From Rugalucina vietnamica (Eukaryota > Mollusca > Bivalvia > Lucinida > Lucinidae): a stretch of 64,000 nucleotides of DNA. The notes beneath the pieces were generated by a model. That model did not search any database. It was not told where the DNA came from and worked only from the letters and a program-made list of their open reading frames with translations. The stretch is taken from the NCBI GenBank assembly GCA_964017185.1, contig OZ024880.1, forward strand, positions 47,939,071-48,003,070, given 5' to 3'. Within the stretch, counting starts at the first letter, position 1; every line of letters starts with the position of its first letter. The position numbers and the translations under genes were made by a program. Below, piece after piece: positions 6,211 through 62,024 of this stretch.

Positions 6211-6884
6211 AAGAGTTTTGTATTGCTTGGTTCTAATCCTAAAACTGACAACTGCAATTACAAGACAATAAACAATACAAATGCAAGGGAGAAATTATTA
6301 GATATTATTTACAATAAACATTTAATATATCCATATAGAGATGAACATGCAGATTTAAGAAGGTACACTCGGAGAAGAAAACAACCATTTCAACAAGCTA
6401 GACTTGACTTCTTCTTAATCTCGGAAGATCTTTTAACATCTGTAAAAAGTGTATAATAGAAAATAGTTATAGATAGCATTATTGTCCAGTATTACGTAGC
6501 ATGTGTTTTAAAAATTTTAAACATATTTTTAGATGAAGTTTAACAACTCTTTACTAAAGGATACTGAATACTTAGAAACTATTAACAATAAAATAGTTAA
6601 AGTTACATTACAATATAGCCTTCCAATTTATAATTATGAGCACTATGATAATTTTTCACTCTTGTTCGAATTTTCTGTCCGTTGCCTTCATCAGGGAAAC
6701 AAAAATGTTATTCTCTAAGAAAGTGACTTCCATACTGAATTTCCACTCATTAGTAAAAAAAAATTATCATAGTGTATATCTTCTATTCCCTCCGACATTT
6801 TTCATTTGAAAGTATAATTATGAAGGTTTGCAAAACATTCCTAATTCTGAAATTCAATTTACCATAAATGATAAAAATAAAACT

Positions 6885-7205
6885 GAGATCCTTTAAGAAC
6901 AGTGACAATATTGAGAATTAATGGGGCTGGGCCATACCGCGCTTTCGGCTACTTAAGCCTCTTCAGTGACCCTATAGATTTGGTAACATGGAGCCAAAGA
7001 GAATTACTGTAAATTGGTATCTTTCAGCAGGGTAGTCGAGTATAATCGAAATGGGGCCAAATATATTAAACGTTGGACAAAAAATGATTCTAAATCGATA
7101 AACAATTTCTGATTTCTCAGAATACCCTCGCTGTTCAGTTTTTTTTTCTGGACACATTACTAATGAGCGGACAATTATCTTTAATGATCCATTTAGAATC
7201 ACCAA
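6885..7205 (-). mobile_element. Hammerhead-bearing repeat, single copy (retrozyme-like)
   Basis: Minus-strand copy of the family in tandem at 61190-61770: shared TTTGGCTCCATGTT, CCAAATCTATAGGGTCA and GGTATTCTGAGAA blocks. It carries a hammerhead motif at 6929-6972 whose stem III is weakened. Confidence 0.6.
6929..6972 (-). ncRNA. Hammerhead ribozyme motif (stem III weakened)
   Basis: Core CTGAAGA, stem II GGCT/AGCC, GAAA and stem I GGGTCA/TGGCCC are kept. Stem III (GCGCGG) has a G-G mismatch, so activity is doubtful. Confidence 0.5.
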
Positions 7206-15378: not shown

Positions 15379-16199
15379 TATGGTGGCTTGTTAGTGCCAT
15401 TTTGTCTTTTCGTTATTTCGCAGCGAAATAACGCCACGCGAAAAGACGAACAGACGAAATAACGCCGAGCGAAAAGACGAAAAGACGAAATAACGCCGCG
15501 CGAAAAGACGAAAAGACGAAATAACGCCGCGCGAAAAGACGAAAAAACGAAATAACGCCACGCGAAAAGTCGAAATAACGAAATTACTGCACAAAAAGAC
15601 GAAATAACGCCATGCGAAAGAACGCAATTTTATAGCCATCATAATGGCGTCTTTTCCAGTGCCTTTTTTCGTTATTTCGTCTTTTCGTGTTGCGTCTTTT
15701 CGTTATTTCGTCCTTTCGTTATTTCGACTTTTCGTTATTTCGTGTTTTCGCGTGGCGTCTTTTCGTTATTTCGTCTTTTCGTTATTTCGTCTTTTCGCAT
15801 GGCGTCTTTTCGTTATTTCGTCTTTTCGTTATTTCGCGTGGCATCTTTTCGTTATTTCGTATTTTCGTTATTTCGTCATTTCGCGTGGCGTCTTTTCGTT
15901 ATTTCGTCCTTTCGTTATTTCGTCTTTTCGCGTGGCGTTTTTTCGTTATTTCGTCTTTTCGCGTGGCGACTTTTCGTTATTTCGTCATTTCGCGTGGCGT
16001 CTTTTCGTTATTTCGTCCTTTCGTCTTTTCGCGTGGCGTCTTTTCGTTATTTCGTCTTTTCGCGTGGCGTCTTTTCGTTATTTCGTCTTTTCGTTATTTC
16101 GTCTTTTCGTTATTTCGTCTTTTCGTCTTTTCGCGTGGCGTCTTTTCGCGTTTAAAAATAGATGATAATAATCTATACCTTTGGTGACCTTTATTATAA

Positions 16200-20006: not shown

Positions 20007-20861
20007 CGATTTACAATGGTGTCAATTTAAATAAAGACAGTGTGACACATTTTGTTATAAATATAAAAGTCACTGAAGGTGTAGATTATTATCATGTATA
20101 TCTATTTTTAAACGCGAAAAGACGAAATAACGAAAAGACGAAATAACGAAAAGACGCCACGCGAAAAGACGAAATAACGAAAAGACGCCACGCGAAAAGA
20201 CGAAAGGACGAAATAAAGAAAAGACGCCACGCGAAATGACGAAATAACGAAAAGACGCCACGCGAAAAGACAAAATAACGAAAAAACGCCACGCGAAAAG
20301 ACGAAAAAACGAAAGGACGAAATAACGAAAAGACGCCACGCGAAATGACGAAATAACGAAAATACGAAATAACGAAAAGACGCCACGCGAAATAACGAAA
20401 AGACGAAATAACGAAAAGACGCCACACGAAAAGACGCCACGCGAAAAGACGAAATAACGAAAAGACGAAATAACGAAAAGACGCCACGCGAAAAGACGAA
20501 ATAACGAAAAGTCGAAATAACGAAAGGACGAAATAACGAAAAGACGCAACACGAAAAGACGAAATAACGAAAAAAAGGCACTGGAAAAGACGCCATTATG
20601 ATGGCTATAAAATTGCGTTCTTTCGCATGGCGTTATTTCGTCTTTTTGTGCAGTAATTTCGTTATTTCGACTTTTCGCGTGGCGTTATTTCGTTTTTTCG
20701 TCTTTTCGCGCGGCGTTATTTCGTCTTTTCGTCTTTTCGCGCGGCGTTATTTCGTCTTTTCGTCTTTTCGCTCGGCGTTATTTCGTCTTTTCGTCTTTTC
20801 GCGTGGCGTTATTTCGCTGCGAAATAACGAAAAGACGAAATGGCACTAACAATCCACCATA

Positions 20862-26640: not shown

Positions 26641-27222
26641 ACAGATCATTGCTTAATCTTACCTTTCCACAGTTTTAGCTCATCCGCGACATTATATTTA
26701 ACACCTAACCCAAGCAAACAACATGAAACGCCAATGACAGCTCCAGCGGTTGTCAGTCAGCTACACAATGCCATATTTACTTGACCTTACGTATGTTGCA
26801 TGCCTTGAGCGCAATGGCTATGGGCATTCGAGAAAATTGAAAGTACAAACGCCCTTTTCGCATGAATAACAATTGGGATTGTTTCCAACACATAAGAATA
26901 GAAAACACTGCTACTGGTTTACAATGGAATCACAAAAATTATCATTATTTTTGTCTTCAAGTGAAGTGTTATTTCAGACGAAAATCATTAAGCATCAGTC
27001 TGACGGTCTTTCAATATTTTGTAATTTGCAAATGTTGAAATACGCAAAACCATACGTAGTTGTGAAAATTATCGGCCTTATCATACGTTCTTAAGCATTA
27101 AAATTGTAGACATGCACCTTGCTCTCGATTCTATAATAATAAACCCAACTAAATGTAATAACTTAAGGAATAAAATATAATTGTTAGATCCTTTGGAAGC
27201 AGTAAAACATTCAAAGAGAGGT

Positions 27223-27268
27223 GGGCCATATTGTACAATTTCGGGTAATGAACCTTCATCAGTGACCC
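27223..27268 (-). ncRNA. Hammerhead ribozyme
   Basis: Minus-strand order: GGGTCA (stem I), CTGATGA, stem II with GGT/ACC, GAAA, stem III ATTG/CAAT with a TA loop, cleavage triplet ATA, TGGCCC (stem I). An A/C mismatch sits at the base of stem II. Confidence 0.65.
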
Positions 27269-27601
27269 TTTACAAAACTGGCAGCGAAAGCCAGACATTC
27301 ATGATTGCTGCAATTTCAAGAATTTTCACCAGTATAGTCTAAATCAAAGACATATATTCCCAAAGGGGCCAAATACGCAAAATTCTGTTAAGATGATGAT
27401 TCTTAACGTACAGTATATTTGAAATACTCCAAATATCTTCACTGATCTCAAAGGATCAAAAGAAAAATATAATCTGCACTATGGATGATGTACGGGGAGA
27501 CTTTTTAGGGCCGCCACACGGCACAACACCAGCTGCAGTAATAGCAAATAAAATATAATTGTTAGATTCTTTGGAAGCAGTAAAAACATTCAAAGAGAGG
27601 T

Positions 27602-27647
27602 GGGCCATATTGTACAATTTCGGGTAATGAAACTTCATCAGTGACCC
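27602..27647 (-). ncRNA. Hammerhead ribozyme, second repeat (stem II weakened)
   Basis: Same layout as the copy 379 bp away. A G-to-T change in stem II (AGTTTCATTACCC) breaks one pair. Confidence 0.55.
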
Positions 27648-27812
27648 TTTACAAAACTGGCAGCGAAAGCCAGACATTCATGATTGCTGCAATTTCAAGA
27701 ATTTTCACCAGTATAGTCTAAATCAAAGACATATATTCCCAAAGCTTCAATTACAAACATGCATCTGTCAATGCTAATTTCATATTCTATGAATTATTAA
27801 AGAGTTACTAAC

Positions 27813-40229: not shown

Positions 40230-41335
40230 GTTAAATTTATTTTTTTGGATGGTGACGTTCCTCGTCGTGCTTCTTATGGTGTTTACATTTCGCAACTTAT
40301 TAGGTTTGCTAGAGTCTGCAATCATGTTACAGACTTCAACGCTCGAAATAAATGTTAAACGGCAAAACTTCTCCAACAGGGCTATCGGTATCATAAACTT
40401 CGAAAAACCTTTTCTAAATTTTATCGTAGACACTATGAATTGATTTCCAAATATAATGTTAGGTTAAAGACGCTTTTAAGTGAGGGCCTTTCGGAACCTG
40501 AATTTTATGGTGACTTAGTTTACAAATTTAAGAAACTTATAGGAATTAATGATTTTTCTTTTCAGTTCAGAAAAATCATAACACGTTACAGACGTATAGG
40601 TTATAACTTAAATGTTATGCGACAGTCTGCATGCTTTGTTTTTAACCCAATCATGGTTTATAACTATGCTGCCTTCTTTAATTGCACGCCGGTGGGTCGG
40701 GCGTCAGACTCTATGATGGCCCCGACTTAAAGCTATTCATTTTAGTTGGTTGGGGCCGGAGCTTCTTGTCTGCTGCTTGGCCCACCGGGGTCCAACTGGT
40801 GTTTTTCTTTTGCTCCGAAGTGAGTAGGTTATTCGGCGCCCAGGGATCTCCATAGTCGGGCAGCTTACTCAATCTGTGAGTCCTTGTTTTTTATTCATCA
40901 GGATGTTTATCATGATTTATTTGTTTGTTCTTGATGATTCATTGACTAGTTAGAGATTCACCACGAGGACCGAAGAACTTACTAAATGTTATGAACCACT
41001 GCAGAAGCTGAGGGTGAGGTTAGGATCCTGTAAAACCGGTTTAAGCCCGCCAGTAACTTTGTGTTACTGATCGTTCCATGGCGATACTTCTGTGGTGGTT
41101 CTTTTTGTTTTATGTCTTGGTGTTTAATTTTTTTTGTGCTGTTGGCGCCTTATGTATGTTTTCATATTTTTAATTAAGTTAAGGTAACTGAGTGGCCACC
41201 TATTGGGAAAATAGCTGCTCATTCGGCTTAAGTGTCTGATTGTTAGTTTGTTTTTTTCCCACCTCGGTTTTTGGAGTGGGAATCTCTTTCTGATTGCGCC
41301 TTTTCCTGATCTTTGCCTACTTGTACCTTTTTATG
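40230..41335 (+). mobile_element. PLE copy, plus strand: RT tail and 3' region
   Basis: ORF pieces at 40228-40443 and 40440-40730 (frameshifted) read LRVYNVRLKTLLSEG-like text, SEPEFYGDLVYKFKKLI and NYAAFFNCTPVGRASDS, then the full 3' region to CTTGTACCTTTTTA. With the copy at 38885 it forms an inverted pair. Confidence 0.7.
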
Positions 41336-45915: not shown

Positions 45916-46619
45916 ATGTATTTACAGGTAAAAACTGGAAAAAAATGAAAATAGGTAAATAAACAAAATAAATAAAAAACAATGCAAAAATACACAAATA
46001 CACAAAAATCACATGAAATGTGACAAAGTTGACACCACTGTATGTTCGGCAGTGGGTAAACGACTTAAAATTAATTCATGAACGCCCTTTGAAAGGGCCC
46101 AGTATCTGCTAAAAATGGCGACAAAAATTGCGCGTCACTTTACTACATAAGGTCAGTTTGTAGCGGTGTGTTTAATTTGCTCGGTAATTGTGTATTAGCT
46201 ATGTAAGTTAAACATTGGGGAACCAGGGCTGGAGGCAACCAGATAAAAATCAAGGTAATAAGCACAAAATAGAGTCAAACAGAGTACTTTCCATGAATGC
46301 AAATCATCCCAGAACTGCTCACGGACGGTGCTTGGAAGGAGAGACGGCGAAAATGGCCATCCTCGATTTTTGAAATATAAAAATTTAGATAAAAATTGCC
46401 TTTGTGCTCAATTGGCGAACATTTGATTTATTGAAGTTTGAAGAATTTAGATGAAAATCACATTTATGTGGTCAGAAGAGGAGGCGAACACACCGCTACA
46501 AGCAAGAAAAGGGGGATGCGAAAACCATGTTTTATGCAGAGAGACGAGACAGATATACGTATGTAGCTGAAATGGCCCATAGGTTGACACACTGCTACAG
46601 AATGCATAACTGGTAAGCT

Positions 46620-47840
46620 GTGGGGACCCAGGAAAACTGGGGAACCCAAGGGACGGCCATGGGAACGAAAATGGCACCATCATACGCCAACATTTTTATG
46701 GGTAGGCTTGAGAAACAGCTCCTTCAGTCTGTGAGCTTGAAGCCATTCTCGTGGCTCAGGTTCATAGACGATATAGACATGAAGTGGACCCACGGCAGAG
46801 AGACACTGGAAGAATTCCTCGCGGGTGCAAACAACTTCCATCCAACAATAAAGTTCACTGCAGAGGTATCCAACGACAAACATGTCTTTCTAGACACCAC
46901 GTCTCACCTAGAAGGAGACAGAGTCGTCGTGGACCTCTACACTAAGCCCACAGACTCACACCAGTATCTCCTGCCATCAAGCTGCCATCCACCCCATTGC
47001 AGTCAGAACATTCCTTACAGTCTTGCGCTACGCATCAGACGCATTTGCTCAGACGACGAGGCTTTTGAGTTGCGAGTGAAAGAACTCTCTGATCAACTCA
47101 GTAAACGAGGTTATCAGAAGCAGAGCATCGACCAAGCCATAGGAAGGGTTAGACAAATGGACAGACTAAGTCTGTTATCGTACAGGCCTAAACCCACCCA
47201 AGACAAAGCCATCTTGCCATTCGTCATAACTTATCACCCAGACCTACCTAAGGTCAGGAATATCGTTGACAAGCATTGGCCCATCATCGAATCATCAGAC
47301 CATCTGAACTCAGTCTTTCCGCAAAAGCCAATTATGGCTTTCAGAAGGCCCAAAAGCCTAAGAGACCTTCTTGTGAGAGCGAGACTGAAGCCAGATTCCA
47401 TAGATGATGAGCCTCATGGCGAATGCAAGCCCTGTGGCAGATCAAGATGTCGAACCTGCGACATGATAACCCCGTCCCACATAGCCAAGTCGTCGAATGG
47501 GGCAAAAGTAAGACTGAGGGGGAGTACTGACTGCAAAACAATGAATGTGGTTTACCTGATATCGTGTGGAGAGTGTGGAAAACAGTATGTTGGGGAAACC
47601 AAGGGCCTACTCAGCGTGAGGATGAATGGTCACAGAGATGACTGGAAACACAAGAGATTTGAACGATCTCCAGTTGCAGAGCACTTCCGGTTGCCAGGGC
47701 ATGACTTCTTGAGTCATGCCTCTGTTTGTTGCTTGGACCACAATTCGGGTTGGACGGACAAGACCAGAAAACAGCGTGAGAGCTACTGGATACGCCGTCT
47801 CAACACACTGAATCCAAGCGGCATCAACAAAGGAGATTAG
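46620..47840 (+). CDS. PLE RT C-terminal half plus GIY-YIG endonuclease
   Basis: 406 codons. RT motif B is [16 protein letters not shown] at the very start, and motif C is [10 protein letters not shown]; then [33 protein letters not shown], a C-x2-C/C-x2-C linker ([15 protein letters not shown]) and GIY-YIG as [18 protein letters not shown]. The fingers and motif A are missing, so the protein is truncated, but this frame has no stops. Members of this family copy RNA at nicked DNA ends. Confidence 0.8.
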
Positions 47841-54074: not shown

Positions 54075-57000
54075 TTACCGTTTTCCTGTAGGTACAGGAA
54101 AATCTGATATAGCCTCAACTTTGGCTTCTACAGGTCTGACCTGACCTTGTCCAACAATATGTCCTAAAAATGTCAAACTAGCATGGCAAAATTCACTTTT
54201 CGGTAAGTTTATTGTCAGTTTAGCATCACTGAGTCTTTTGAAGAATTCTCTGATGATCTCCAGGTGTTGTTTCCACTCTTCACTGTAGATGATGGCATCG
54301 TCGATGTAAGCTTTACACCCATCCAGACCGAAAATCAAACTATTAACCAAGCGAACCAAGCAACATTTCAGCGCTTTCAGTTTATTTCGAAATTGTCTTT
54401 CTGTAGTAACAAATTCTAAAATCTCCTTTGGACTGTCTGTAAATGGAATCTGCCAAAACCTTTTCAATAGATGGAATTTTGTCACATATTTGGCGTGACC
54501 AATGTTGTCGATGCAGTCATCAATTCTTGGTGTGGGAAATGTGTCAGTTTTTGTGACAGAATTTACTTTTCTGTAGTCTGTGTACATTCGAAATGTCCCA
54601 TCAGATTTTGGCACAAGTATACAAGGAGAACTCCATTCACTTTGACTAGGTTCTATAAAGTCATTGTCCAGCAAATACTTAACTTCTTTCCTGAGATATT
54701 GTTGTCTTTCAGGATGAAGTCTATATGGATGTTGTTTCACCGGTTTTGCTCCTTCAATAATGTCTACATCATGGTAGATTTTATCGGTTCTGGATGGAAT
54801 GTCCGGAAATAAGTGCTCATATTCAAGAATTAATTGTTTTAGTTCATGTTTCTTGTCCGGATCTAGATGTGACAGTTTCTGATCGAGGTCATGCAGAATG
54901 TCAGAATTCTGGAGTTTTGAGGATAATGGTTCACAGTTCACAGAGTTTATTTCTTCAAAGTCTGTCTGATTTTGTTCATGAGGGACAGAATTAACTATGC
55001 TTACTGAGGAAATAACTGAACTATCATTATCACTATCCCTATCAATGTACTTTTTAAGCATGTTAATATGACATAATTGTTTTTGCTTGCGCCTCCCAGG
55101 AGTGTTAACAATGTAATTTACATCACTTAACTTTTTCTCAACAGTATATGGACCATAATATCTAGCTTGTAATGGCCTGCCAGGAATGGGCAAAAGAGCA
55201 ATCACCTTGTCTCCAGGGTCAAAATTTCTGTTCTGAGCATTTTCATCAAAATGCAACTTCATTTTGCTCTGAGCTGACTTAAGATTGGACCGAGCAACTT
55301 CCCAAGCTTTTGTCAATCTAGTTTTGAAGTCAGACACATACTGAAGTAAGTTCAAAGGACTGTCATTACTTGAAAGAAACTTCTCTTTCATAAGTTTTAA
55401 AGGTCCACGAACAGTGTGTCCGAAAACAAGTTCAAACGGACTGAACCCAAGAGACTCTTGTACTGACTCTCTGACAGCAAATAATAGCAAATGTATGCCT
55501 TCATCCCAATCTTTTTCGGTGTCAAAGCAGTAAGATCTGATCATGTTCTTCAAAGTTTGATGGAATCTTTCCAAAGCACCTTGACTTTCAGGATGATAAG
55601 CTGATGACTTGTATTGTTTAATGCCAAGTTCATGCATTACTTGCTGAAATGTTCCTGACATAAAATTGGAACCCTGATCTGATTGGACTGATTTTGGAAG
55701 ACCTACAAGTGTGAAAAACTTTACAAGGGCCTTAACTATTGTTTTCGTCTTGATATTCCTGAGTGGAATTGCTTCAGGAAAACGTGTTGAAGCACACATT
55801 ATAGTCAAGAGATATTGGCAACCTGATTTAGTCTTGGGTAACGGACCTACACAGTCAATGATAATCCTACTGAATGGTTCATCAAATGCAGGAATAGGCT
55901 GTAAATTAGCTTTTGGAATAGTCTGATTAGGTTTTCCTACCATTTGACAAGTGTGACAGGATTTGCAATGTTGGGAAACATCAGATTTTAATCCTGGCCA
56001 GTAGAAATGCTTGAGAATTTTGTGGTAAGTCTTATTTATCCCTAAATGACCTGACATGGGAGTTTCATGGGCCAAGTTTAAGATTTCAGGACGATAAGCC
56101 TTAGGAACCACAATTTGGTGATTTATGGTCCATTCGTCTTCCGCTGAAACATCAGGAGGACGCCATTTTCTCATTAAGATGTCATTTTTGACATAAAAAC
56201 AAACAGGAACCTGAGAAATTTCATTTTCATCTAAAGCCCTTTCAAATAAAGGCGAGATTTCAGGATCACTGTGCTGTTCTTGACAAAGTTGTGACCTTGA
56301 CATTTGGTCGTGACCTTGGTCAATTAAAATTGAAGGTGTAAGGTCATTGTCTGACCTTTGATTGTTGAAGTCAGTTTGACTTGAAGAAAGAGATTTTGTA
56401 ATCTCATCATGAAAAGACTGACCTATAAAAGTGTCAGTTAAGTCAACATCCTGTATCCCATCATTCAATTTGACTTTCTTTGCCATAGCCCTTGTAACGG
56501 CACATGAAGGGTAAAGATCAGGAATTTCCTGCTCAATGGGATCAGGCAATTGATCCTCACAAGGTGTATTGGTCAAAAGTGGGTTTACCACAACCTTATC
56601 TCCGGCTAAGTCATTGCCTAATAGCAAGTGAACACCTTTAAAAGGTAAAGAAGGCCTAATACCTACAGCCACAGGACCAGAAACTAAGTCTGAAGACAAA
56701 TAAATGTTATGGAGCGGTACATTAACAAATCCACACTCTACTCCCTGAATAAGGACACTTGTCCCAGTTGAAGTCTTCTCGGAAAAAGGCAGGGTATCTG
56801 CTAAAATAAGAGACTGAGAAGCTCCGGTATCTCGTAAGATTTTAATAGGGGTAGACTGGGCAGAATCACTAGTAAGTGACACAAAACCTTCTGATAAGAA
56901 TGGTTCATAAATCTCCATAATACAATCAGTCGCAGACGTTTTGGCCAAAATAGGATTTTCATCCTGAATAATCGACTGTGGTTTTGACCTTAAAGAAGTA

Positions 57001-58577
57001 AGACCTGTTGGTCTAGAATTATTTTGATTTTGTCTCTCTTTTCTTCTTTTCAAAGTTTCACATTCAGAAATGACGTGACCGTCACCTTTACAATAATTGC
57101 AAAACAGCCGGGGTGAGTATGAGGATCTTTGACCTTTGTTTTCACTAGTATCTTTATTTTTAGGATTATGTGAAGGACTGGAACTATCAGCTGTTAGTCC
57201 AGCTTGTGGTTGTGGATTAGGTTGAGGAGAATTATTTCTCTGTTGAGGGTTAAATGGTTTTGACTGAGGTGTATTAGGTTTAAATTGAGGGTTAAAAGGT
57301 TTCTTGTAAGGCTTATTTACAAAAGACACCTTATGAGTCAAAGCATAATCATCAGCTAATCGTGCTGCTACATCTAAAGTTTCTACTTCCCTTTCGTCAA
57401 GAAAAGATTTGACATCAGAGTGTATGCATCGTTTGAACTCTTCAACAAGCATGAGCTGTCTTAATTTTGCATGATCAGACTTTACATCCTTTGAAGAACA
57501 CCACCTATCAAATAATTGCTCCTTAGTTCTAGCAAATTCTACATGGGTTTGGTCATGTTCTTTCCTACAATTTCTGAATTTCTGCCTATAAGCTTCAGGT
57601 ACTAACTCATAAGCCTTAAGAATCAGATTTTTGACTGTGTCATAATCTGAACTTTGATCAAGTGGAAGCTGAGTGTAAATTTCTCGAGCTTTACCAATAA
57701 CAACACTCTGTAGAAGCAAGGTCCAATGCTCTTTTGGCCATTTCAAATTTTCTGCTACCTTCTCAAAATGTAAAAAATACTTATCTACCTCTTTTTCTTG
57801 AAATGGAGGAACGAGCCTGATATGCTTTGTAACATCAAATACTTTACTAGGATCAAAAGACACAGGAGGCATTGATTTACTGCTTAATTCAAGCTCTTTC
57901 ATTTTTAAACTATATTGCAGTTTTTCTTTTTCAACCTCAATTCTTTCTTCTTGCTCTAATTTTTCTTTTGCAAGCCTTTCTTCTAACTCTCTTTGTTTTT
58001 CTAACTTTTCTATTTCTAACTGTCTTTGTTTTTCTAATCTCTCTTTTTCAAGTCGTTCTTCCATTTCTCTTTGCTTTTGTTTTTCTTCTCTTTCAAACTG
58101 CATTTGTTTTTCTTTTTCTCGCTCTTCCTTTGCTAACTTTTCTTTTTCTAACTCTAACTTTTCTTTTTGCATTCTTTCTTCCCTTTCTTCCTTTTGTTTT
58201 TCAAGCTCTAACTTTTCTTTTTGCATTCTTTCTTCCCTTTCTTCCTTATCTGCCCTTCTTTTTTCTTCAAATTCTAATCTTAATTTTTCCAGTTCAAGAT
58301 GCCTTTTTAATTCTAACTCTTTCAGCTGTATGTCGGTTTGTGAGACCATAATTAGAGATGTAGCTGAGGGTTCAAAAAATTCCTCATCAACAAGAAACTG
58401 AATGATAACATTCTTAATTTCACGTTTTAACATAGATGTTTTGACATCAGGTATGCTATAATGACTAGCAATGTCTAAAAGATCACTCTTTTTGGCCAAG
58501 TTTAACAGCTCTTGAGAAGGCGCAGCAATGAAATCTTCAAGTTTGAATGACATGGTTGCTTTTTGCTGGTATGACAA
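54075..58577 (-). CDS. Gypsy gag-pol polyprotein, C-terminally damaged
   Basis: 1,500 codons. A highly charged coiled coil (about residues 60-245), capsid-like region (about 260-430), zinc knuckle CNYCKGDGHVISEC (~490), protease RDTGASQSL (~582), integrase zinc finger H-H-C-C (~830-875), integrase D (IIIDCVG), D (SDQGSNF) and E (ESQGALERF) at about 906, 963 and 998, a GPY/F-like end (RYYGPYTVEKK, ~1142), then RT from ~1270. RT motif A has His for the catalytic Asp (KFHLLKRFW), the PFG(L/M) block is replaced by an indel, YIDD is kept (~1422), and the frame stops shortly after. Most of RNase H is deleted. Confidence 0.88.
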   Translation of the reverse strand: MSYQQKATMSFKLEDFIAAPSQELLNLAKKSDLLDIASHYSIPDVKTSMLKREIKNVIIQFLVDEEFFEPSATSLIMVSQTDIQLKELELKRHLELEKLRLEFEEKRRADKEEREERMQKEKLELEKQKEEREERMQKEKLELEKEKLAKEEREKEKQMQFEREEKQKQREMEERLEKERLEKQRQLEIEKLEKQRELEERLAKEKLEQEERIEVEKEKLQYSLKMKELELSSKSMPPVSFDPSKVFDVTKHIRLVPPFQEKEVDKYFLHFEKVAENLKWPKEHWTLLLQSVVIGKAREIYTQLPLDQSSDYDTVKNLILKAYELVPEAYRQKFRNCRKEHDQTHVEFARTKEQLFDRWCSSKDVKSDHAKLRQLMLVEEFKRCIHSDVKSFLDEREVETLDVAARLADDYALTHKVSFVNKPYKKPFNPQFKPNTPQSKPFNPQQRNNSPQPNPQPQAGLTADSSSPSHNPKNKDTSENKGQRSSYSPRLFCNYCKGDGHVISECETLKRRKERQNQNNSRPTGLTSLRSKPQSIIQDENPILAKTSATDCIMEIYEPFLSEGFVSLTSDSAQSTPIKILRDTGASQSLILADTLPFSEKTSTGTSVLIQGVECGFVNVPLHNIYLSSDLVSGPVAVGIRPSLPFKGVHLLLGNDLAGDKVVVNPLLTNTPCEDQLPDPIEQEIPDLYPSCAVTRAMAKKVKLNDGIQDVDLTDTFIGQSFHDEITKSLSSSQTDFNNQRSDNDLTPSILIDQGHDQMSRSQLCQEQHSDPEISPLFERALDENEISQVPVCFYVKNDILMRKWRPPDVSAEDEWTINHQIVVPKAYRPEILNLAHETPMSGHLGINKTYHKILKHFYWPGLKSDVSQHCKSCHTCQMVGKPNQTIPKANLQPIPAFDEPFSRIIIDCVGPLPKTKSGCQYLLTIMCASTRFPEAIPLRNIKTKTIVKALVKFFTLVGLPKSVQSDQGSNFMSGTFQQVMHELGIKQYKSSAYHPESQGALERFHQTLKNMIRSYCFDTEKDWDEGIHLLLFAVRESVQESLGFSPFELVFGHTVRGPLKLMKEKFLSSNDSPLNLLQYVSDFKTRLTKAWEVARSNLKSAQSKMKLHFDENAQNRNFDPGDKVIALLPIPGRPLQARYYGPYTVEKKLSDVNYIVNTPGRRKQKQLCHINMLKKYIDRDSDNDSSVISSVSIVNSVPHEQNQTDFEEINSVNCEPLSSKLQNSDILHDLDQKLSHLDPDKKHELKQLILEYEHLFPDIPSRTDKIYHDVDIIEGAKPVKQHPYRLHPERQQYLRKEVKYLLDNDFIEPSQSEWSSPCILVPKSDGTFRMYTDYRKVNSVTKTDTFPTPRIDDCIDNIGHAKYVTKFHLLKRFWQIPFTDSPKEILEFVTTERQFRNKLKALKCCLVRLVNSLIFGLDGCKAYIDDAIIYSEEWKQHLEIIREFFKRLSDAKLTINLPKSEFCHASLTFLGHIVGQGQVRPVEAKVEAISDFPVPTGKR

Positions 58578-58653
58578 ACAATAAATATCTTTTCAAATTC
58601 AGAATAAAATAGGTGCACAAAATGTTCAATCCCGGCTCAGAGCCCCCAAAATC

Positions 58654-60720: not shown

Positions 60721-61296
60721 CCTGACCTTAGACTCGTCTTAGCTATAATAACCTATCATCTTTTATCCGTCTTGATGAATGTTTTAAGAGACCTATTTCC
60801 CTGTCTATTGGAGGTCATTAACTGCTCACTGAGAAGGGACATGACACTTGAAAACCCTGGTGGCCTGACATTGACTCTGAGTACAGATGGGGAATCAAAC
60901 AGGTAAAAACCAATATTGATTGCAGAGGGAAGCAGCTTGATTGCACAGGTAATCAGGGATCAAAAAATCAATAAGCAGTGGACCTTTGGTATTATCCTTT
61001 AGGGGCCTTTCTATTGCCCGCCTGCAGAGATGAGGTAATCATCTTATTTTGACAGTCCTTTGATCTCTGGACGATAAGGTCCATATAATAAACAGCAGTG
61101 GTACCAATATTGCCCCTTCAGGAGCTTAGTCTTTTTTTTTTTAATTTTCAGCATTTTTTTTCAACAGCGCATCTGCCTGAAATGTCCGCGAGGGCGTATG
61201 GCAGTATATGGAGATACCCATTTGGGATATCGACTATCCTGTTTAAAGATGCAAAATTACAGTAATTCTCTTTGGCTCCATGTTGCCAAATCTATA

Positions 61297-61340
61297 GGGT
61301 CACTGAAGAGGCTTAAGGAGCCGAAACCATGGTATGGCCC
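61297..61340 (+). ncRNA. Hammerhead ribozyme A
   Basis: GGGTCA (stem I), CTGAAGA core, stem II GGCT-TAAGG-AGCC, GAAA, stem III ACC-AT-GGT, triplet GTA with predicted cleavage after 61334, TGGCCC (stem I, one G-T wobble). All conserved positions fit. Confidence 0.78.
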
Positions 61341-61672
61341 ATCCCCTTTCTCATTAATATATTCACTGCTCTTAAAGGATCTCAGTTTTATTTTTATTTG
61401 CTATTACTGCAGCTGGTGTTGTGCCGTGTGGCGGCCCTAAAAAGTCTCCCCGTACATCATCTATAGTGCAGATTATATTTTCCTTTTGGTCCTTTGAGAT
61501 CAGCGAGGGTATTCTGAGAATTCAGAAAATTAATATCGGTCTTGATTCATTTTCTGACCAACGTTTCATAAGTTTGGTCCCATTTGGATTATAATATTCT
61601 TTTTATCGACTATCCTGTTTAAAGATGCAAAATTACAGTAATTTTCTTTGGCTCCACGTTGCCAAATCTATA

Positions 61673-61716
61673 GGGTCACTGAAGAGGCTTAAGTAGCCGA
61701 AACCATGGTATGGCCC
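61673..61716 (+). ncRNA. Hammerhead ribozyme B
   Basis: Same as copy A, with loop II TAAGT instead of TAAGG. Predicted cleavage 376 nt from the site in copy A would release a unit-length RNA. Confidence 0.78.
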
Positions 61717-62024
61717 ATCCCCTTTCTCATTAATATATTCACTGCTCTTAAAGGATCTGTTTTATTTTTATTACTCATGAATGGCTTGTCGGTGCAGCCA
61801 AACACGGCTAGAGTTTTTAAATGGTTTTTACTCGAAAAAATGTACAGTTGAACATGTATGACCAAATGCTGAAACGATATGCTTTTAAACGAAATCTGAC
61901 TAAAACCCTGCTTGAAAGGTCCGTTTAATTGACAAATCATGTCTCGTTTTTGGCAATAACTACGTATCTAATTAAATTAGATAACAAACACAACACCTAA
62001 TGTTTCTGTATAAGAAAAACTACA

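Follow-up and report, generated by a model that had tools for sequence, protein, structure and literature searches.

Retrozymes of this sort are already known in animals, as the sequence-only reading of the DNA studied here had stated; according to the available text of PMC7229834, published metazoan ones include those of the mussel Mytilus galloprovincialis, with units of 350-390 bp and ribozymes without loop contacts. In the same text and in the available part of a 2020 review (PMC7761336), the question of which enzyme reverse transcribes animal retrozymes was stated as open in 2020, and the review describes metazoan retrozyme repeats as holding no conserved motif that betrays the helper. 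Target duplications are an optional feature of metazoan non-LTR retrozymes and are longer than 4 bp when present. Minimal hammerheads reportedly occur in Penelope-like elements as well, as Cervera and de la Pena in 2014 and Lunse in 2017 are said to have described. In PAc, from a lizard, the cut is at 26, and reverse transcription begins at an internal site of the RNA, 111-118 nt into the ORF (PMC11167929). Penelope insertions occur both with and without target duplication (PMC3846280, available text).

Sequence analysis confirms that Rugalucina vietnamica harbors a real retrozyme family of this known kind, which looks abundant and of which one branch looks recent, and for which the evidence on insertion anatomy is new. 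The 64-kb stretch analyzed as a whole, hereafter the window, contains three loci of this kind (Table 1).

Hammerheads and tandem units in the window

Locus A holds two complete type I hammerheads, which are predicted to be self-cleaving. Hammerhead 1 reads GGGTCA CTGAAGA GGCT-TAAGG-AGCC GAA ACC-AT-GGT A^TGGCCC (^, predicted cut), and hammerhead 2 is identical except for one loop base. In both, stem I comprises 6 bp including one U-G pair, stem II 4-5 bp and stem III 3 bp closed by a 2-nt loop, and the cleavage position H17 is A. When both strands of the 64 kb were scanned for the strict three-helix motif, these were the only two occurrences, and in 60 first-order Markov sequences there were no strict motifs and on average 0.12 loose ones. 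The direct repeat of locus A spans 166 nt at 95% identity ungapped, or 171 nt at 97% identity gapped, and its spacing, the distance between the predicted cuts and the unit length are all 376 nt. The sequence-only reading had claimed a full core in two copies, stems I, II and III of 6, 4 and 3 bp, and a repeat distance of 376, and on each of these points it agrees with the scan and the repeat analysis. The range that it gave, 61190..61770, is the right place, but the element extends from about 61217 to about 61772, beyond that end.

Table 1. Positions of retrozyme and related features in the window.
Feature	Position	Strand	Remarks
Locus A, retrozyme insertion, ~1.45 units	61217..61772	+	5' end CCCATTTGG, 3' end TTTTTATT; from alignment of the two copies and 3' junctions
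Hammerhead 1, type I	61297..61340	+	minimal palindromic stem III ACCAUGGU; predicted cut 61334/61335
376-nt unit RNA expected from double cleavage	61335..61710	+	predicted from repeat spacing and motif scan
U-rich site in the unit, at the homologous position to the 3' end of most insertions; putative reverse-transcription start	61386..61399	+	
Conserved module, ~107 nt, adjoining the putative start site downstream	61397..61503	+	
Hammerhead 2, type I	61673..61716	+	predicted cut 61710/61711
Locus A 3' end, GTTTTATTTTTATT	61759..61772	+	62 nt past second cut
Locus B, second family, 379-nt unit, ~1.5 units	27169..27744	-	
Locus B hammerhead copy 1	27602..27647	-	A-C mismatch at stem II base and second stem II mismatch; stem III AUUGUACAAU
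Locus B hammerhead copy 2	27223..27268	-	A-C mismatch at stem II base
Locus B conserved module	27442..27548	-	
Locus C, single partial unit, 263 nt, same 3' site, without conserved module	6871..7133	-	
Locus C hammerhead	6929..6972	-	stem III decayed (AGCGCGGU)
Penelope-like element fragment	46617..47840	+	reverse transcriptase end by eye; GIY-YIG endonuclease just below Pfam cut-off

No hammerhead in the window was matched by Rfam at the gathering threshold. With E values up to 10 allowed, Hammerhead_3 matched hammerhead 1 only, with 18.4 bits (E = 0.67) against a gathering threshold of 48.5 bits, and the Infernal search that had been proposed as a check, with the lack of any hit to count against the claim, thus came close to such an outcome. 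We attribute the miss at threshold to the minimal stem III and the way in which Rfam models this stem. The miss would also be expected of a hammerhead-like sequence arisen by chance in an ordinary repeat, an explanation rendered virtually negligible by the absence of strict motifs from the 60 simulated windows and by the covariation over 82 distinct rows described below. The best local fold around the motif is not the native hammerhead, and the 376-nt unit folds only somewhat better than its shuffles (linear z = -2.08), as do the circular forms (z = -1.8 for A and -1.3 for B).

A model made from the five hammerheads of the window recovers those five in the window, with the next match at E = 0.45. 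Between the A and B hammerheads two pairs are changed on both sides, which is weak evidence alone, as 129 of 500 shuffles reach two. The GC contents are 0.38 and 0.369, below the 45-50% used as a criterion for metazoan retrozymes. No long frame was found in the 376- or 379-nt unit, and the longest frame of unit A is stopped in B. A coding role for the conserved module was likewise rejected, since the frame that is open in A carries a stop in B.

Copies, covariation and insertion ends across the genome

First-look searches of the 1.09-Gb genome gave 4739 candidates with A as query, 3645 with B and 1804 with C; these are not confirmed copies, and 40 of each query's candidates were scored. Among the 40 scored of the 3645 B candidates, the top matches are 95-98% identical, and the B family therefore looks young. 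This apparently young family retains the A-C mismatch at the base of stem II (27223-27268 and 27602-27647, minus strand). Our sample consists of 58 genome pieces obtained via the A and C queries, which both ended near the 3' site and whose loci were chosen by best score rather than at random, and 20 pieces obtained via a module query. After removal of overlap duplicates and of BLAST groups that were shorter than 80 bp or came to within 30 bases of a piece end, 64 distinct copies remained, with lengths of 88-2319 bp, from part of one unit up to 6 units. The five-copy hammerhead model, applied to the window and to 68 of the 78 loci, gave 157 matches at E<=0.01; ten overlapping loci were left out of this count, some overlap remains in it, and six of its rows are seeds or their copy in L009. 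Beyond the genome itself, there were 0 exact matches for three patterns in viral contigs and for one in genome contigs, these collections being of viruses and prokaryotes.

An alignment of 150 hammerheads, 82 of them distinct, was used to examine covariation. Among the 82 distinct hammerheads, standard pairs fill 96.3% of the pair cells, and both sides are changed in 21 cells; neither figure, nor the covariation score, was reached by any of 500 shuffles (0/500 in each case). Further pair types were reached by 5 of the 500 shuffles. Double-change pairs numbered 4, a value that 23 of 500 shuffles reached and that is not special. When the partners were slid, at most 45.1% of the cells were paired, and the double-change pairs numbered up to 5 (at a slide of -2 or -3) versus 4. 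Two circumstances bias these figures toward structure, namely the fitting of the alignment to it and the kinship of the sequences, and kinship can beat shuffles even without any structure. The covariation supports selection on the hammerhead fold. The strict core is kept in 53 of the 82 distinct rows (119/150 with identical rows included). Of these, 37 carry a self-complementary stem III, which occurs as three different sequences (98/119 with identical rows included). Since stem III is self-complementary in most strict-core rows, dimeric action is possible, such as has been reported for amphibian ribozymes (PMC7229834, available text).

Most of the copies share a preferred 3' end. Counting the first base past the cut as unit position 1, the 3' end falls at position 58-72 in 53 of the 64 distinct copies, 32 of which end at 64 or 65, and the cluster is found in both the A sample (27/31) and the C sample (26/33). 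The choice of query could favor copies that reach the 3' site, but nothing in the selection forces them to stop there. Among the 20 pieces chosen by the module, whose edge lies only ~27 nt past the 3' site, 11 end at 57-72, 5 end elsewhere and 4 reach the piece edge. The remaining 11 of the 64 copies have their 3' ends at other positions, and four of the 11 belong to one long array (G000 C7:49698116-49705493). In this array (L012, L018, L021, L026 and L038), stretches of retrozyme alternate with ~375 bp unlike unit A, perhaps as a higher-order repeat. The 3'-end site is U-rich (GUUUUAUUUUUAUUU) and lies ~64 nt after the cut, and 41 of the 53 copies with a clustered 3' end exceed one unit. At the other end, the starts of loci A and B differ by no more than 2-3 nt, and locus C starts at the module edge. 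A defined 5' end, which these three starts had suggested, was rejected, as the 5' ends of the 53 copies show no significant clustering (1161 of 2000 uniform simulations were as clustered).

These ends also bear on whether the family is a satellite DNA amplified by unequal crossing-over, in which the hammerheads would be decayed passengers. Tandem arrays of up to 6 units with like units would be in keeping with such an origin, but copies on many contigs share one preferred 3' end, by which it is already disfavored; moreover, the hammerhead helices covary and the strict core persists in 53 of the 82 distinct rows. We therefore regard a satellite origin as highly improbable.

Immediately downstream of the putative start site lies a module in which A and B are identical at 104 of 107 positions; the rest of the unit has 193 matches, 50 mismatches and 55 gap columns. 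In the A sample, obtained with a query that contained the module, 25 of 27 copies are closer to A in the module than in the remainder of the unit; in the C sample, obtained with a query that lacked it, 20 of 23 are. Copies with too little of the module or of the rest had been dropped (30 to 27 and 32 to 23). Copies chosen by the module query are biased for module conservation. Recent exchange as the sole cause of the near-identical module of A and B is rejected, as the module is also the slower part in the C sample (20/23). The other conserved part of the unit is the hammerhead region. The fold of the module is unremarkable (z = -0.99), and its conservation and position suggest that it is a putative recognition site for reverse transcriptase. 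Among the titles and abstract openings listed, mostly of non-subscription literature, no published description of a fixed start site in a retrozyme was found.

Ten loci gave matches across their joined flanks; four of these insertions, which lie in repeats, have clear empty sites, and the matches of the other six are ambiguous (68-82% alike). At the 3' junction, the four clear ones read TTTTT (L037), TTTT (L039 and L052) and TATT (L040). L039 and L052, on different contigs and with different 5' ends, have a common junction, TTTT|ACA; the junction of L037 is TTTTT|ATTT, and in L040 TATT stands next to CAT. The T-rich junctions are in keeping with a nicked target end that anneals to the U-rich site and serves as primer. 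Directly after the 3' end, the 53 copies have A (31), C (13), T (7) or G (2), with flanking T undercounted, as a T in this place would be counted as element. Target duplications show no clear excess: a common word of at least 8 nt was found in 2 of the 53 copies versus 0.9% of control pairings (~0.5 expected), and the mean common flank word is 4.09 versus 3.97 in controls, with 5' ends known only roughly.

LINE endonucleases use T-rich sites, and T-rich targets followed by A (31/53 copies) resemble such sites. Mobilization by a LINE through target-primed reverse transcription, instead of by a Penelope-like enzyme, is nevertheless unlikely, as there is no clear target duplication by either of the above measures and as priming appears to take place inside the unit, not at the tail of the RNA.

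The empty target of L040 is related to another sequence of the window. At 40705-40772 (+) there is a SECIS_1 match over the Rfam threshold (39 bits, gathering 35), which overlaps the end of a reverse-transcriptase-like frame recognized by eye (40359-40730). Similar sequence is also present at 22114-21877 and 39600-39395, and in L040 it is the target into which a retrozyme has inserted. The match is probably a repeat hairpin and not a selenoprotein signal.

Probable mode of insertion and the candidate helper element

Taken as a whole, the family is very probably a non-autonomous non-LTR retrozyme with a fixed internal start of reverse transcription. Transcription would give a tandem RNA, which each hammerhead would cut, alone or as a dimer via the palindromic stem III, into 376-nt units that a host ligase could close into circles. 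A reverse transcriptase acting in trans would start at the U-rich site ~64 nt past the cut, primed by the nicked T-rich target, and synthesis would run upstream for one or several laps of the circle, or along tandem RNA, with no fixed stop. Cleavage, circles, priming and the identity of the enzyme are what we infer from the features described above. The clustered genomic 3' ends (53/64) are in keeping with a fixed internal start downstream of the hammerhead, a trait of Penelope-like elements. In 30 of 43 arrays the units are closer to each other than to the nearest other locus (copies below 480 bp and inter-locus matches below 150 nt were left out, and locus B has no close relatives in the set), as expected if one circle was copied; later conversion could also make the units of an array alike. 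A fuller reading is that animal retrozyme RNAs carry a dedicated entry site for a borrowed reverse transcriptase, made up of the U-rich start ~64 nt past the cut and the 107-nt recognition module, and that circles are copied for one to several laps by internal initiation of the Penelope type. We advance it tentatively, with slightly more doubt than belief. If true, the entry-site reading names the missing step in retrozyme spread. The preferred 3' end and the adjoining conserved module also permit a direct biochemical test with the 376-nt RNA and offer a route to the helper element.

The Penelope-like fragment in the window shows that such elements are present, which does not imply that this copy is the helper. 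The genome has at least 104 Penelope-like copies among the matches listed, and 3819 candidates. In one family with 964-aa open frames, some copies of which form tandems of 3892-3893 bp, five pieces show a hammerhead-like motif in the pseudo-LTR, with helices assigned by eye; its stem III is AGCGCGCU (AGCGCACU in one piece), and its stem II has one additional A at the base. The four ends examined (L080, L081, L082 and L083) each run into a long (TA)n at one of two internal sites, ~41 nt (two ends) or ~132 nt (two ends) past the cut; either the enzyme prefers (TA)n targets or it slips. Retrozymes thus co-occur in the R. vietnamica genome with Penelope-like elements bearing minimal hammerhead-like motifs. 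The 376/379-nt units themselves have no ORF with reverse transcriptase and GIY-YIG, as Penelope-like membership would entail. The layout of the Penelope-like family parallels that of the retrozyme and of PAc, but the targets differ, being (TA)n in the Penelope-like family and not in the retrozyme, and no common sequence was found at E 0.01. A Penelope-type enzyme is therefore our first guess for the helper rather than a finding, and its chances seem about even.

Alternatively, the family could be a non-autonomous Penelope derivative, whose repeats are pseudo-LTRs, whose ORF has been lost and whose template is linear uncut RNA and not a circle. The pLTR-like layout of loci A and B, the insertion of PAc in vitro independently of hammerhead cleavage (PMC11167929), and the Penelope-like family of the same genome, whose 3' ends are fixed and whose hammerhead-like motif has a palindromic stem III, would all fit such an origin. 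However, a comparison of the retrozyme with the five Penelope-like pieces and two window areas revealed no common sequence at E 0.01; the 5' ends are scattered instead of lying at one start site; and arrays of several like units are better explained by a circle. Descent from a Penelope element in this manner is possible, though on balance doubtful.

Other repeats were also observed in the window. The regions 15424-16148 and 20111-20816 are composite arrays of CGAAAAGACGAAATAACG-type short repeats with long frames on opposite strands, as if they were inverted copies, and 54075-58592 (-) contains a 1505-aa open frame that by eye resembles a Ty3/gypsy-type element.

Comparison with known retrozymes

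The designation of locus A as a tandem retrozyme-like locus is upheld by 376-nt units that each have a type I hammerhead, 38% GC and no long shared reading frame, and further by the thousands of first-look candidates, the copies ranging from partial to 6 units and the covariation of the helices. As in metazoan retrozymes, there is a type I core with three helices, the tandem units fall within the range of ~150-450 nt, dimers to multimers occur and copies are many. The closest likeness is with M. galloprovincialis, whose retrozymes also have type I hammerheads in tandem non-coding repeats, with units of 350-390 versus 376-379 nt in R. vietnamica, low GC, thousands of copies (candidate copies here) and Penelope-like elements in the genome (PMC7229834, available text). 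This likeness is drawn from the published description of the mussel sequences (MN642551-MN642576). The suggestion that the family's sequence may be new holds only in part, as its kind has already been published in metazoans, mussels included. The available text of PMC7229834 describes no fixed 3' end, conserved module or T-rich targets for the mussel retrozymes.

Like locus A, plant LTR retrozymes have two hammerheads in direct repeats around a short middle; they differ in that their ribozymes are of type III and their units measure 600-1000 bp, and in having target duplications of 4 bp and a primer binding site (PMC7229834 and PMC7761336, available texts). The type I topology and the lack of a clear target duplication set the R. 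vietnamica family apart from this type. In newt and axolotl, hammerhead repeats have a weak palindromic stem III and possible dimer action, as here, but the stem III of R. vietnamica, with 3 bp and a 2-nt loop, differs from theirs when compared by description (PMC7229834, available text). From Penelope-like elements the R. vietnamica retrozyme differs in its lack of an ORF, its 376-nt unit and its target other than (TA)n; PAc and the Penelope-like elements nonetheless resemble it in their minimal type I hammerhead, in an internal start of reverse transcription shortly past the cut, putative in R. vietnamica, and in their tandem copies (PMC11167929).
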